DNA of 6,429 nucleotides from a bacterium (GTDB taxonomy: Bacteria; Eremiobacterota; Eremiobacteria; Baltobacterales; Baltobacteraceae). Location: assembly GCA_021781095.1 (NCBI GenBank), contig JAJXXM010000204.1:1-6429 (forward strand), in the 5' to 3' direction. Below are positions 2,017 through 6,429 of this stretch, in pieces. A program made the translations under genes and the position numbers. The notes below the pieces were generated by a model that worked only from the letters and a program-made list of their open reading frames with translations, was not told the DNA's origin and searched no databases. Every line of letters begins with the position of its first letter. Within the stretch, counting starts at the first letter, position 1.

Positions 2017-2355
2017 ATGATGACACGAGTGCAACTCCTACGCGTCTACCTCCACGAAGGCGACCGTTTCGAGGATCGTCCCGCCTATGTCGCGCTGATC
2101 GAGCGTTTGCGCGCCGCAGGCGTCACCGGAGCGAGTGTCTTTAAAGGAATCGAAGGCTTCGGCGGCAGCGGTACCGTGCATTCCGCGCGCGTCTTCGATC
2201 TCTCGACGAACTTGCCGGTCGTCGTCGAAGTGATCGAAAGCACCGAGAAAATCACCGCGATCCTGCCGATCCTTCACGAGACGCTCGCCAGCGGACTCCT
2301 CACGCTCGAGGGCGTCGAGATATTGCGGTTGCCGGCGATGGGAGAGAAACGATGA
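2017..2355 (+). CDS. DUF190 family protein, companion of CrcB
   Basis: This 112-residue soluble protein belongs to the DUF190 family, small alpha/beta proteins with a fold related to PII signalling proteins. Typical family stretches are visible: LLRVYLHEGDRF near the N-terminus, then LRAAGVTGASVFKGIEGFG, then VVVEVIES and a terminal VEILRL strand. The length is normal for the family. Its biochemical role is not established. DUF190 genes are very often found beside crcB, and the ATGA overlap with crcB here indicates co-translation. That suggests, without proving, an accessory or regulatory role in fluoride export. The start is the first of two tandem ATG codons, chosen for its spacing from the AAGGAG site. 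Confidence 0.92.
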   Translation: MMTRVQLLRVYLHEGDRFEDRPAYVALIERLRAAGVTGASVFKGIEGFGGSGTVHSARVFDLSTNLPVVVEVIESTEKITAILPILHETLASGLLTLEGVEILRLPAMGEKR

Positions 2356-2741
2356 ACCTGAAGGCGATTCTCGCGGTCGCGTTGGGCGGCGGCGTCGGTT
2401 CGGCGTTGCGGTACATCGTGAATTTCGTCGTCGTCGCACGCGTCGGGCCGGGTTTCCCATTCGGCACGCTGCTCATTAATATTACCGGGAGCTTACTGAT
2501 CGGCGTCGTCGCCGAGCTGGCAGCGACATCCTCGCTGGGAATGACGCCCCTGCTGCGTCTCTTCCTCGCCGTCGGCGTACTCGGCGGTTACACGACGTTC
2601 TCAACCTTTGCCTTCGATACCGTGACCTTGGTTGGGGATCGGACGATCGGTCTTGCGACGATGTACGTACTCGCAAGCGTTTCGCTCGGTGTTCTTGCTG
2701 CTTTTGCCGGGCAGGTGCTCGTGCGCTTGGCGATGCGCTAG
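2352..2741 (+). CDS. crcB: Fluoride exporter CrcB/Fluc
   Basis: Fluc proteins are small dual-topology membrane channels that let fluoride leave the cytoplasm. The 129-residue sequence has four hydrophobic segments and the family signatures in order: GGGVGSALRY (12-21), GTLLINITGS with the conserved pore Asn (N43), and GVLGGYTTFSTFAFD (75-89), which holds the two phenylalanines (F83, F86) of the fluoride path and the sodium-site TTFSTF segment. Only one copy is present, so a homodimer inserted in opposite orientations is expected. GGAGAG at 2341-2346 provides a ribosome binding site 5 bases before the ATG, inside the DUF190 gene. The ATGA overlap couples it to DUF190. The final residue of the third motif is Asp where Glu is common, a conservative change. 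Confidence 0.95.
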   Translation: MNLKAILAVALGGGVGSALRYIVNFVVVARVGPGFPFGTLLINITGSLLIGVVAELAATSSLGMTPLLRLFLAVGVLGGYTTFSTFAFDTVTLVGDRTIGLATMYVLASVSLGVLAAFAGQVLVRLAMR

Positions 2742-2826: not shown

Positions 2827-2832
2827 AAGGAG
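2827..2832 (+). promoter_or_regulatory. Strong ribosome binding site of the PYP gene
   Basis: AAGGAG, within a longer AAGAAGGAG run, sits 5 bases before the ATG at 2838. It fixes the start and suggests efficient, independent translation of the PYP gene, which lies 96 bases after crcB. Confidence 0.8.
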
Positions 2833-2837
2833 CAGTC

Positions 2838-3212
2838 ATGCACGATAATGATTTGATCGAACGCGTTGAGGCAATGAGCGCACGCGAGATCGATGGGTTG
2901 CCCGTCGGCGTTATTACATTAGGGCTCGACGGAATGATTCGGCGTTACAATCGCACCGAGGCGGAGATGGCGCGCCTCGACCAGAGATCGCAGGTAGGGC
3001 GAAACTTCTTTACCGAGGTCGCTCCCTGTACTGCGAATCCGGAGTTTCAGGGGCGCTTTACGGCCCTCGCTGCGAAGTCGAGCGGCGGTATCGAGACCTT
3101 CGACTACACCTTCCGTTTCGCTTGGGGCGCGCAGCGCGTACACATTACGTTCGTACACAAAGCGGGTCGCGACGATGTCGACGTGCTGGTGACGCGGATG
3201 TCTGCCGGATAA
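2838..3212 (+). CDS. pyp: Photoactive yellow protein (PYP), stand-alone blue-light-sensor PAS domain
   Basis: PYP is a soluble cytoplasmic photoreceptor that binds p-coumaric acid by a thioester to one cysteine and isomerises on blue-light absorption. The 124 residues align along their whole length with Halorhodospira PYP, as recalled: IDGLPVGVITL (18-28) for the first strand, YNRTE (37-41) carrying the chromophore-binding Tyr42 and Glu46 equivalents (Y37, E41), GRNFFTEVAPCTANPEF (54-70) with the anchor cysteine C64 (Cys69 in the reference), then FDYTFRF (88-94) and VHITFVHKA. Matching length and retained Cys/Tyr/Glu argue for a true PYP rather than a generic PAS domain. Positions aligned with reference Thr50, Arg52 and Met100 appear to be A45, L47 and W96, so colour and dark recovery may differ. 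It has its own ribosome binding site and is followed by a strong hairpin, so it is probably monocistronic. No output domain is attached. Confidence 0.9.
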   Translation: MHDNDLIERVEAMSAREIDGLPVGVITLGLDGMIRRYNRTEAEMARLDQRSQVGRNFFTEVAPCTANPEFQGRFTALAAKSSGGIETFDYTFRFAWGAQRVHITFVHKAGRDDVDVLVTRMSAG

Positions 3213-3245: not shown

Positions 3246-3273
3246 GAGGCCGCGCTCGCAGGAGCGCGGCCTC
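3246..3273 (+). terminator. Perfect 12-bp hairpin, probable terminator of the PYP gene
   Basis: GAGGCCGCGCTC at 3246-3257 pairs perfectly with GAGCGCGGCCTC at 3262-3273 around a GCAG loop, 33 bases after the PYP stop. Stem strength and position fit a transcript end. No T run follows on the plus strand, so it may act with Rho or protect the 3' end instead. Confidence 0.6.
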
Positions 3274-3316
3274 CATTCGAGGACTCCCCGGGCAAGAATC
3301 ATGACGCTCTTCTCGA

Positions 3317-3321
3317 GGAGG
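3317..3321 (+). promoter_or_regulatory. Ribosome binding site that decides a TTG start
   Basis: GGAGG, within GAGGAGG at 3315-3321, lies 6 bases before the TTG at 3328. The competing in-frame ATG at 3301 has no comparable site upstream, and the GGAGG would fall inside its coding sequence. Confidence 0.6.
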
Positions 3322-3327
3322 TTCTCG

Positions 3328-6300
3328 TTGTCTCGCACATCCGTACGCTGGGCGCTCGCCGCTACAGCCCTTTTTGCACTTACTCTTCCCTCGTTCGCGC
3401 GCGCCGCGGGCGCGTCGAGCGCCTCACCCGCCACGAGCGCGGTGAAGGCGACGCCGAAGCCCACGCCCACGCCGACTCCCCCGCCGCCATACAAGCAAAT
3501 GCATTGGCGCGCGATCGGCCCCGCAGCCGGAGGCGGGCGCGTGACCTCCGTTGCCGGCTCAGCAACGAACGTGAAGCTCTATTACGTCGGCTCTGCCGGC
3601 GGTGGGGTTTGGAAGACGATCAACGGCGGCTTCACCTGGACGCCGGTCTTCGCGAATCAGAAGGTCGCCGCAATCGGTGCGCTGACGATCGATCCCAGCA
3701 ACAATAATACGGTGTGGGTTGGAACCGGAGAGAGCAATCCTCGCAACGACGTCAGCTACGGCGACGGACTCTATAAATCGACGAACGGCGGCATGACCTG
3801 GAAACTGGTCGGGCTCAAGGGCGTTCGTTCGATCTCGCGCATCGTCGTCGATCCGAAGGACGGCAACCACGTGGTGGTCGCGGCATTCGGCGACCCCTAT
3901 CGGAACAGCGTTCATCGCGGCGTCTACGTCACGTTCGACGGCGGAAAGACCTGGAAGAAGACGCTCTATCTCGCGCCGGATAGCGGAGCGAGCGATCTGG
4001 CAATGGTGCCAAGCGACCCGAACGTCGTCTATGCCGGGATGTGGGAGTTCCGTCGCAAACCGTGGACCTTCCGCAGCGGCGGTCCGAACGACGGGCTCTA
4101 CAAATCGACCGACGGTGGGAAGACGTGGACGAAACTCGTCGGCAACGGCTTGCCGAACGGGATCACGGGACGCATCGGTCTCGCCGTTTCGCAGAGCGAT
4201 CCGAATTACGTCTATGCGCTCATCGAAGCAGCGCACGGAATTCTCTGGCGCAGCGAAAACGCGGGCAAGAGCTGGAAGATGGTCAGCGATAACACGCTCG
4301 TCGACCAGCGTCCGTTCTATTTCACGCACATCGCCGTCGATCCAAAGAATCCGAAGAAAGTCTATGCCGTTTCGGAGATGACCTCGGTCTCCACCAATGC
4401 CGGCAAGACGTTCCACCCGATCGCGCTTGCGGTTCATGTCGATTATCATGCGATTTGGATTGCTCCAAACGATCCATCGCGTATCATGCTCGGCGAAGAC
4501 GGCGGGTACGCCCTCACCGTCGATGGCGGAGCGAATTGGTTCTTCTCGAAGAATCTTCCGATTGCGCAGATCTATCACGTCGGGCTCTCTAACGAGAATC
4601 CGTATGAAGTCTGCGCGGGCCTCCAAGACAACAACGCGTTCTGCGCGCGGGAGAACTCACTCGATCCCAGCGGGCTGCTCAACAAATATTGGAAGGTGAG
4701 CGTCGGTGGCGACGGTGAGTGGTCGGTCCCCGATCCCTCCAACCCAAATTACATTTGGAGTGACTCGGAGAACGGCTCCGTCGTCGTGTGGAATAAGAAC
4801 ACGCAGGACCAATGGTCGGCGCAACCCTACATTCAGGGTGTCAAAGAACAGTACGACCTGCGCACGAGCAAATATCGCTTCAATTGGGATTCTCCGATTG
4901 CTTTTGCACCGTGGAATCCGCATATCGCTTGGGTCGGCGGCGACGTCGTCTTCCAGAGCACCGATCGCGGCAAGAGCTTCAAGGTCATTAGCCCCGATCT
5001 TACCTTAAATATGAAGGCGCACCAGATTCCCTCGGGCGGCCCGATTACGCATGACGTTTCGGGAGCGGAGTATAGCGATACGCTGCTCGATATCGAAGGC
5101 TCTCCGGTTCGCAAGGGCGAGATCTGGACCGGCGCCGACGACGGCGTCATCGGCCTTACGCTCGATGGTGGAAAGCATTGGAAGAAGATGCTGATTCCCG
5201 GCGTGCCGCCGTACGGTCGCGTCGAAACGGTTGCCCCGTCGCCGTTCAACGCCGCAACCGCCTATGTCTCGATCGATCGCCATCGCTCCGGCGATTATAA
5301 ACCGTACGTTTTTGTAACGCATAATTACGGAAAGACCTGGAGTTCGATTGCGAGCAATCTTCCGAAGAACGTCTTCGTCCGGACGATCCGCCCCGACATT
5401 AAAAACTCGTCGATTCTCTACCTCGGTAACGAAACGGGCATCTTTATCTCGTTCAACGATGGAAAGAGTTGGAAGAGCTTTAAGAACGGCATGCCGACGG
5501 TTTCGGTTCGCGATATCCGCATGCAGCCGACGTTCGACGATCTCGTCGTCGCAACGCACGGGCGTTCGATCTATATCATGGACGACATGACTCCGATCCA
5601 GCAACTCGCTCGCGCGAAAGCTGCCGGCGGACGGTTCTTCCCGGTTCGTGTCTCCTATCAATACACGCTACACGAAAACGACGAAGGCACCTACACCGAT
5701 TACGTCGGTAATAACCCGCCCTTCGGCACCATCTTCGACTACTATCAGAAAACGGCGAACGCAAAAACCCCGCCGACCCTGCAAATCTTCAACGCTCGCG
5801 GGCAGTTAATGCGTTCGATCTCCGGCACCCATAAAGTCGCCGGGAAAGCGAAATCGCGCATGCCCAATGCCGTTGGTCTCAACCGCTATGTGTGGGATTG
5901 GGGCACCAACGGGGTCGCACTGTGGAAGGGCGCGGCGAAGAAATCGTACCAAGGCTTCCCTGAGGGGCCGGCGGTGCCGCCGGGTACCTATACCGCGAAG
6001 CTCACCTTCGACGGGAAGACCTACACGCGTCGATTTGTCGTAAAACCCGACCCGCGCTCGAAGTTTACGCAGGCCGATTACAACCGATCCTTTGCCTTCG
6101 CAATGAAGTACGAGGTGATGTTCGGCAAGATCGACACGATGCTCAATAACCTCGATGCATTGAAGAAGCAACTCGCTGCTGCGAAAAAAGCCGCTACTGC
6201 GAAGAAAGCAACGGCTGTGCTTCCCGCAATCGCCGAGCTCTCCGGTAGTCGTCGCGGAATGTTCAATATTCTGACGGCGAACTATCAAAACGATGAGGAC

Positions 6301-6429
6301 TCCATCGAGCGTCCGGGTGCGCTGCGCGAAGATTTCGAGCAGCTCTACTTCGTCGCTCAAGGGCTCATCACGCCGCCGACGGTTGCCTTCGCGCACCGCC
6401 TCGACGGAAAATATGCTCGAGCAATCGGG
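3328..6429 (+). CDS. Secreted Asp-box (BNR) beta-propeller protein, sortilin/Vps10-like (3' end outside window)
   Basis: This large exported protein has 1034 codons in view and no stop. Residues 1-26 form a signal peptide (MSRTSVRW, hydrophobic core, cleavage near ARA), and residues 40-54 are a Thr/Pro linker (TPKPTPTPTPPPP). Eleven Asp-box motifs of S/T-x-D/N-x-G-x-T/S-W/F type begin at about residues 97, 151, 202, 260, 309, 355, 397, 544, 611, 664 and 708, marking propeller blades to about 755. The GLQDN stretch near 430 is common in Vps10-like bacterial proteins. C429 and C439 are the only cysteines I found and could form a disulfide. A beta domain follows (PGTYTAKL near 885), then a Lys/Ala-rich helix at about 946-962. 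Asp boxes are structural, so no enzyme activity can be assigned. The TTG start is chosen for its Shine-Dalgarno site; ATG at 3301 would lengthen the n-region by nine residues. Confidence 0.9.
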   Translation, partial: MSRTSVRWALAATALFALTLPSFARAAGASSASPATSAVKATPKPTPTPTPPPPYKQMHWRAIGPAAGGGRVTSVAGSATNVKLYYVGSAGGGVWKTINGGFTWTPVFANQKVAAIGALTIDPSNNNTVWVGTGESNPRNDVSYGDGLYKSTNGGMTWKLVGLKGVRSISRIVVDPKDGNHVVVAAFGDPYRNSVHRGVYVTFDGGKTWKKTLYLAPDSGASDLAMVPSDPNVVYAGMWEFRRKPWTFRSGGPNDGLYKSTDGGKTWTKLVGNGLPNGITGRIGLAVSQSDPNYVYALIEAAHGILWRSENAGKSWKMVSDNTLVDQRPFYFTHIAVDPKNPKKVYAVSEMTSVSTNAGKTFHPIALAVHVDYHAIWIAPNDPSRIMLGEDGGYALTVDGGANWFFSKNLPIAQIYHVGLSNENPYEVCAGLQDNNAFCARENSLDPSGLLNKYWKVSVGGDGEWSVPDPSNPNYIWSDSENGSVVVWNKNTQDQWSAQPYIQGVKEQYDLRTSKYRFNWDSPIAFAPWNPHIAWVGGDVVFQSTDRGKSFKVISPDLTLNMKAHQIPSGGPITHDVSGAEYSDTLLDIEGSPVRKGEIWTGADDGVIGLTLDGGKHWKKMLIPGVPPYGRVETVAPSPFNAATAYVSIDRHRSGDYKPYVFVTHNYGKTWSSIASNLPKNVFVRTIRPDIKNSSILYLGNETGIFISFNDGKSWKSFKNGMPTVSVRDIRMQPTFDDLVVATHGRSIYIMDDMTPIQQLARAKAAGGRFFPVRVSYQYTLHENDEGTYTDYVGNNPPFGTIFDYYQKTANAKTPPTLQIFNARGQLMRSISGTHKVAGKAKSRMPNAVGLNRYVWDWGTNGVALWKGAAKKSYQGFPEGPAVPPGTYTAKLTFDGKTYTRRFVVKPDPRSKFTQADYNRSFAFAMKYEVMFGKIDTMLNNLDALKKQLAAAKKAATAKKATAVLPAIAELSGSRRGMFNILTANYQNDEDSIERPGALREDFEQLYFVAQGLITPPTVAFAHRLDGKYARAIG

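Follow-up and report, generated by a model that had tools for sequence, protein, structure and literature searches.

A predicted stand-alone photoactive yellow protein with tryptophan at the Met100 position in Eremiobacterota

An open reading frame at positions 2838..3212 (+ strand) of the window, the whole 6,429-nucleotide stretch of DNA analysed here, raises the question of whether this bacterium carries a functional photoactive yellow protein (PYP) and, if so, which output the protein serves. A sequence-only reading had proposed a PYP without an output domain, bearing an anchor cysteine (C64) in an APCT motif together with Y37 and E41, in a probably little-cultured lineage. The lineage, Eremiobacterota (Vulcanimicrobiota), is indeed little cultured, and the description of the protein also held. 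The gene, pyp, was read from the sequence as 124 codons plus a stop, with no output domain attached to the product, and an AAGGAG stretch resembling a Shine-Dalgarno element (2827..2832, + strand) lies 5 nt 5′ of its ATG.

Sequence, fold and pocket of the window protein

Aligned with the PYP of Halorhodospira halophila, whose numbering is used below, Cys64, Tyr37 and Glu41 of the window protein correspond to Cys69, Tyr42 and Glu46. The cysteine required for the thioester is thus present, within APCT, and all nine pocket residues listed in PMC12826048 (I31, Y42, E46, F62, V66, A67, P68, C69 and F96) are identical. Thr50 is replaced by Ala and Arg52 by Leu, which are the family consensus at these positions (PMC12826048). 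Clearer departures are Met100 to Trp (residue 96 of the window protein), Pro102 to Ala and Trp119 to Asp. Among the 51 close relatives P0002–P0052, equivalents of Cys69 and Glu46 occur in every protein and Tyr42 in 50, the remaining one having a gap.

Comparisons with known structures point the same way. A phmmer search of PDB sequences returned the PYP domain of Ppr (1mzu_A) as the best match (E 1.2e-19), and 33 of the 34 distinct sequences at E<=1 are PYP or PYP-derived, the other being RpfR (E 0.12). An AlphaFold model built from a 50-row alignment (mean pLDDT 87.2, pTM 0.79) was compared with PDB structures by using Foldseek, and the best 40 matches were all PYP or PYP-derived, including FAST and nanoFAST, with TM values of 0.67–0.89 by query length across those 40.

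The sequence-only reading had called for a profile search. The PYP model TIGR02373 (photo_yellow) aligns with residues 4–120 at 84.1 bits (E 8.1e-24), against only 20–23 bits for generic PAS models, but this score falls below the curated cut-off of 143.05 bits and the protein was therefore kept out of TIGR02373; Pfam assigns it to PAS_4. No protein in our phylum-level set of 149 genomes (Eremiobacterota/Vulcanimicrobiota) passes that cut-off. According to Xing et al., TIGR02373 captures only some 20% of PYPs, and some 30% of the PYPs in their set mostly match PAS_4 (PMC9664959). Judged by these comparisons, the product of 2838..3212 is a genuine PYP.

A scan of genome contigs found 14 loci, all in genomes of the 149-genome set, with a PYP 66–95% identical to that of the window. 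In total this orthologue, termed PYP1, was found in 15 genomes (loci L001–L014 and L068). Values of dN/dS between the window pyp and eight close orthologues range from 0.03 to 0.09, and the gene is under purifying selection.

Chromophore supply, signalling partner and gene neighbourhood

We hold it probable that the window protein is a functional stand-alone PYP, that is, a p-coumarate-based blue-light receptor whose docking partner would be encoded elsewhere in the genome. By analogy with known PYPs, p-coumarate activated as its CoA ester would be bound as a thioester to Cys64, with the phenolate held by Tyr37 and Glu41. Light would then isomerise the chromophore, Glu41 would give up a proton and the protein would open. 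p-Coumarate is common in soil, and we guess that the precursor comes from the environment or from broad-specificity enzymes.

An alternative that we consider unlikely is that the lineage lacks the chromophore pathway and the protein is a PYP-fold PAS sensor that no longer carries p-coumarate in vivo and instead detects another small phenolic, or redox state through Cys64. The search for supply genes speaks for it. None of the 14 PYP1 genomes tested has a coumarate-CoA ligase (pCL) over the TIGR02372 cut-off, and neither a pCL nor a TAL gene occurs in the window. A PF00221 lyase is present in all 14 tested PYP1 genomes, but this family is no marker of PYP, because 132 of the 149 genomes carry it and G093, which has six PYPs, does not. 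Each of the 15 PYP1 genomes has a single PF00221 protein with a Ser-His pair, which we take to be the mark of histidine ammonia-lyase (HAL). In all 15, therefore, the lyase looks like HAL, and the PF00221 search revealed no TAL-like enzyme among them. Moreover, a relative in this phylum that lies beside hemL (L071) lacks the cysteine, so such loss does happen. Against this alternative, Tyr42, Glu46 and Cys69 are conserved together under purifying selection, and, among 113 published pyp operons, TAL is found in only 5% and pCL in 32% (PMC12826048). p-Coumarate is, besides, common in soil.

One candidate supply gene elsewhere in the phylum was rejected. At locus L088 of Vulcanimicrobium alpinus, a PYP gene follows an acyl-CoA ligase gene whose AMP-binding product might have been a pCL; its best match is a FadD7-type fatty-acid CoA ligase, it scores below the cut-off, and relatives 61% identical to it occur in G099 and G107, both of which are without a PYP match.

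For the predicted photoreceptor, the opened state may expose a surface that docks on a distant partner. This step is a guess by analogy with relatives, and the most plausible partner would be a chemoreceptor (MCP) array or a c-di-GMP enzyme. We suggest these two because PYPs of relatives sit near MCP genes (L095 and L085) or in a GGDEF-EAL fusion (L093). All 15 PYP1 genomes have MCP matches (2–9 each), which is weak evidence because MCPs are common. Phototaxis of V. alpinus is triggered by 470 nm light but also by green and red (PMC9758169), so PYP alone cannot explain it; the strain carries other PYP paralogues, not the window orthologue. The 15 PYP1 genomes gave no reaction-centre match (PF00124) and no rhodopsin match (PF01036), the latter being found in two of the 149 genomes (G093 and G119). 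Absences from PYP1 genomes carry little weight, because many of these genomes are MAGs in many contigs.

The window itself offers no adjoining signalling gene. Profile searches give the order ThiC C-terminus, HAD phosphatase, lytic transglycosylase (− strand), DUF190 protein (2017..2355, + strand; PF02641, 112.1 bits), CrcB fluoride exporter (2352..2741, + strand; TIGR00494, 84.5 bits, above the cut-off of 80.45), PYP and a Sortilin/Vps10-like BNR-repeat protein (3301..6429, + strand; PF15902, 105.5 bits) whose gene runs off the window. The two flanking genes are those named at first reading. Between pyp and the Vps10-like gene lies a perfect, GC-rich 12-pair hairpin (3246..3273, strand unassigned), a possible terminator. 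The scan that reported it found one site against 1.7 expected in shuffled sequence, which is not significant, and detected its T-rich tail solely for the − strand. Searches returned no Rfam match across the window and no promoter prediction between 2300 and 3600.

This neighbourhood is well preserved. A Vps10 gene follows PYP1 at 15 of 15 loci, CrcB precedes it at 14 and DUF190-CrcB at 13, and 14 of the 15 genomes retain the order CrcB-PYP-Vps10, even where PYP identity falls to 66%. Such constancy could indicate that PYP forms one functional cluster with fluoride export or with the Vps10-like protein, a proposal to which we give very little credence because the same site exists without PYP. 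Of 20 loci read upstream of Vps10 in other genomes, three place CrcB beside Vps10 without PYP: G092, where DUF190 is present as well (DUF190-CrcB-Vps10), and G073 and G090 (CrcB-Vps10). In G109, DUF190-CrcB is some 4 kb away, and 16 of the 20 show no DUF190, CrcB or PYP match. The CrcB, DUF190 and Vps10 neighbours are therefore probably not partners, and the synteny is explained by descent. Vps10-like relatives at E<=1e-100 are found in 108 of the 149 genomes. Furthermore, 13 of the 15 PYP1 loci (window 3301–6429, L001–L014) have a further downstream copy of the Vps10/BNR-repeat gene, roughly 62–71% identical to that of the window.

A clan of PYPs in Eremiobacterota

In 23 of the 149 genomes there are strong PYP matches, scoring at least 54.7 bits; the next matches, at 29.8 bits and less, look like generic PAS domains. 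A second orthologue group comprises G002, G003, G005, G007, G014 and G076; at L032, the sole locus of this group that was scanned, PYP is followed by a PfkB-type kinase gene.

A phylogenetic tree had been proposed as a check of the identification, and it separates PYP from ordinary PAS. The PYP rows split from eight PAS rows with support of 96/92 and, once long-branch rows are removed, from five PAS rows with 100/100, the outgroup PAS rows in both trees coming from this phylum alone. Chance or convergent resemblance of an ordinary PAS domain to PYP is hardly credible: the PAS_4 assignment and the sub-threshold TIGR02373 score stand in its favour, but the pocket residues, the 40 best structure matches, both trees, the gap between 54.7 and 29.8 bits and the limited coverage of TIGR02373 all say PYP.

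An unrooted tree of 73 rows divides with support of 99/91. One side holds 37 of 39 Eremiobacterota rows, including all four V. alpinus PYPs, and two metagenomic rows (P0060 and P0064) from an unknown host, whereas the other holds 32 of 34 references along with the Eremiobacterota rows L092 and P0200. The references comprise named clade A proteins (H. halophila and Rhodospirillum centenum) and clade C-like plasmid proteins, with no named clade B. The value of 99/91 includes P0060 and P0064; without them the clan receives 73/64 in the same tree, and a clan of 32 rows reaches 100/99 after removal of long-branch rows (L071, P0064, P0069, P0060, L094 and three PAS rows, with nine more thinned). L133 (Rhizobium rhododendri), a plasmid relative without annotation, was excluded. 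Thus, nearly all sampled PYPs of the phylum appear to form one clan, with 99/91 support, apart from clade A and clade C-like references; the clan may yet be tied to clade B. In a first outgroup-rooted tree the references were nested among Eremiobacterota lineages; after row removal, which took out P0060 and P0064, the references formerly on the clan side, the root now lay on the clade C-like side and the clan held together as a single group. Because the rooting is unstable, we make no claim about the origin of PYP in Eremiobacterota.

Two observations bear on the limits of the clan. P0012, a close relative at 74% identity, is named Candidatus Dormibacteraeota; if that name is right, it argues against a clan restricted strictly to Eremiobacterota. 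L092 (1360–1815, in G118) and P0200 (named Vulcanimicrobiaceae) belong to another type of PYP; they are placed among the references, close to the clade C-like rows, and so were probably acquired separately. Forcing all Eremiobacterota rows, including these two, into one clade was rejected (p-AU 0.004, for a group named post hoc with the tree already seen), which supports a second, separate acquisition.

The sequence-only reading had regarded the gene as extending the range of PYPs. That does not stand as new, because PYPs of Eremiobacterota have been in print since 2022 and again in 2025: homologues are reported in Ca. Eremiobacterota (PMC12826048), and the description of the V. alpinus isolate names one PYP gene in its text, WPS_26150, of unidentified function (PMC9758169). 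The paper that defines PYP clades A, B and C does not mention the phylum in the sections covered (PMC9664959). What seems new is a clan with a consistent change at Met100. In open-licence literature, supplements excluded, we found no description of the clan, of the Met100 replacement or of the bchZ-pyp-hemL gene order described below.

Met100 is kept in none of 46 aligned clan rows, many of them close orthologues of one another, against 38 of 42 references, a count that omits L071, P0060 and P0064 and treats L092 and P0200 as references. The position is Trp in 31 clan rows, and the others have Phe, His, Lys, Arg and, in one case, Ser; all 51 close relatives P0002–P0052 have Trp. Two wider lists retain Met100 in 116 of 116 and 77 of 89 proteins (P0066 left out); like the list of close relatives, they were compiled from similarity to individual queries and do not represent the family evenly. 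P0061, P0065 and P0069, outside the clan, also lack it. Met100 is reported to be highly conserved in clade C and is proposed to catalyse re-isomerisation of the chromophore (PMC9664959); PMC12826048 regards it as a probable site of natural tuning. Because Trp occupies this position in the window protein, we guess that its dark recovery is altered, and probably slower. Replacement throughout the sampled clan with the pocket kept offers a natural test of the role of Met100.

Phototroph paralogues and comparison with known systems

PF00124 matches occur in six of the 149 genomes, and five of these have strong PYP matches: one in G074, six in G093, four in G098, six in G118 and four in G119, with none in the sixth genome, G073. 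The co-occurrence gives a Fisher p of 3e-4, uncorrected for kinship among the 149 genomes. We take G119 to be V. alpinus WC8-2, with four PYP genes. A single contig carries puf and, further along, bchX-bchY-bchZ-pyp-hemL in G119 (L160, 2796–14426), G098 (L161, 6–10712; hemL cut by the contig end) and G093 (L162, 2–11256; pufL cut). In G118, bchZ-pyp-hemL lies on one contig (L087, 4593–8558), and a second contig carries puf, bchX and bchY along with the beginning of bchZ. Alignment ends of bchZ and pyp are about 35 bases apart in G098 and 800–900 in G119 and G093. The Bch models score below strict cut-offs in these assignments, and three hemL proteins pass NF000818, not TIGR00713. From its gene number, WPS_26150 is probably the bchZ-hemL copy of V. 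alpinus.

Other PYP genes of the phylum have different surroundings. The copy by hemL in G093 (L094, 5577–6395) is without the Tyr42/Glu46 stretch, and a relative followed by hemL in G083 (L071, 1111–1848), a genome with no PF00124 match, has lost Cys69; both may be decayed or re-purposed. In G119, the L095 PYP lies near an MCP gene, which follows it (6893–7804) and encodes a signalling domain only, of 189 aa; a TAG cuts its Pfam match short. A PYP with Gln in place of Glu46 (L085, 5824–6321, G118) is followed shortly by an MCP gene truncated at the contig end. In G093, a 723-aa frame (L093, 4246–6414, − strand) has the architecture PYP-PAS-GGDEF-EAL and keeps the Cys69 equivalent.

These observations admit a broader and distinctly tentative reading. 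The clan would be a further main PYP clan largely confined to Eremiobacterota, in which Trp-Gly replaces Met-x-Pro in the Met100 loop, with different recovery kinetics as a result. As part of the same possibility, the phototroph paralogue would belong to the photosynthesis cluster (bchX-bchY-bchZ-pyp-hemL) and couple bacteriochlorophyll/tetrapyrrole synthesis to blue light, and the window orthologue would be kept without reaction centres for another output, such as taxis. Taken alone, the window gene is of moderate interest; what deserves following up is the clan, together with the bchZ-pyp-hemL link. The gene order touches the question of what single-domain PYPs signal to and, in the culturable V. 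alpinus, provides a directly testable link from PYP to photopigment synthesis. The window gene complements this, its PYP being retained in genomes with no reaction-centre match. A proven tie of the clan to clade B would lower its novelty.

Among known systems, the Ppr PYP domain of R. centenum (1mzu) is the best PDB sequence match and shares the fold and the Tyr, Glu and Cys residues. It forms part of a PYP/bacteriophytochrome/histidine kinase protein (PMC9664959) and keeps Met100, whereas the window PYP is stand-alone and has Trp there. H. halophila PYP is likewise stand-alone, of similar length, with the nine pocket residues, a TM of about 0.87 and 32–34% identity. It differs in having Thr50, Arg52, Met100, Pro102 and Trp119 where the window protein has Ala, Leu, Trp, Ala and Asp, and in having pCL and TAL in its operon (PMC12826048), neither of which is in the window.

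The PYPs of V. alpinus WC8-2, including WPS_26150, share phylum and clan with the window protein, but they are paralogues in a phototroph, one of them between bchZ and hemL, whereas the window orthologue occurs in 15 genomes with no reaction-centre match. Clade B PYPs (Leptospira, Salinibacter), compared here by description only, often lie beside a chemoreceptor gene without a sensory domain (PMC9664959), an arrangement that L095 of V. alpinus resembles. Finally, the clade C-like PYPs of beta- and alphaproteobacteria (Caballeronia M1242, Comamonadaceae and others), assigned by resemblance to the published description alone, are also single-domain proteins that have lost Trp119. They lie in a separate part of the tree from the window clan, and by the published description clade C retains Met100 and has lost Phe92/Phe96 (PMC9664959), the reverse of what is seen in the window PYP.
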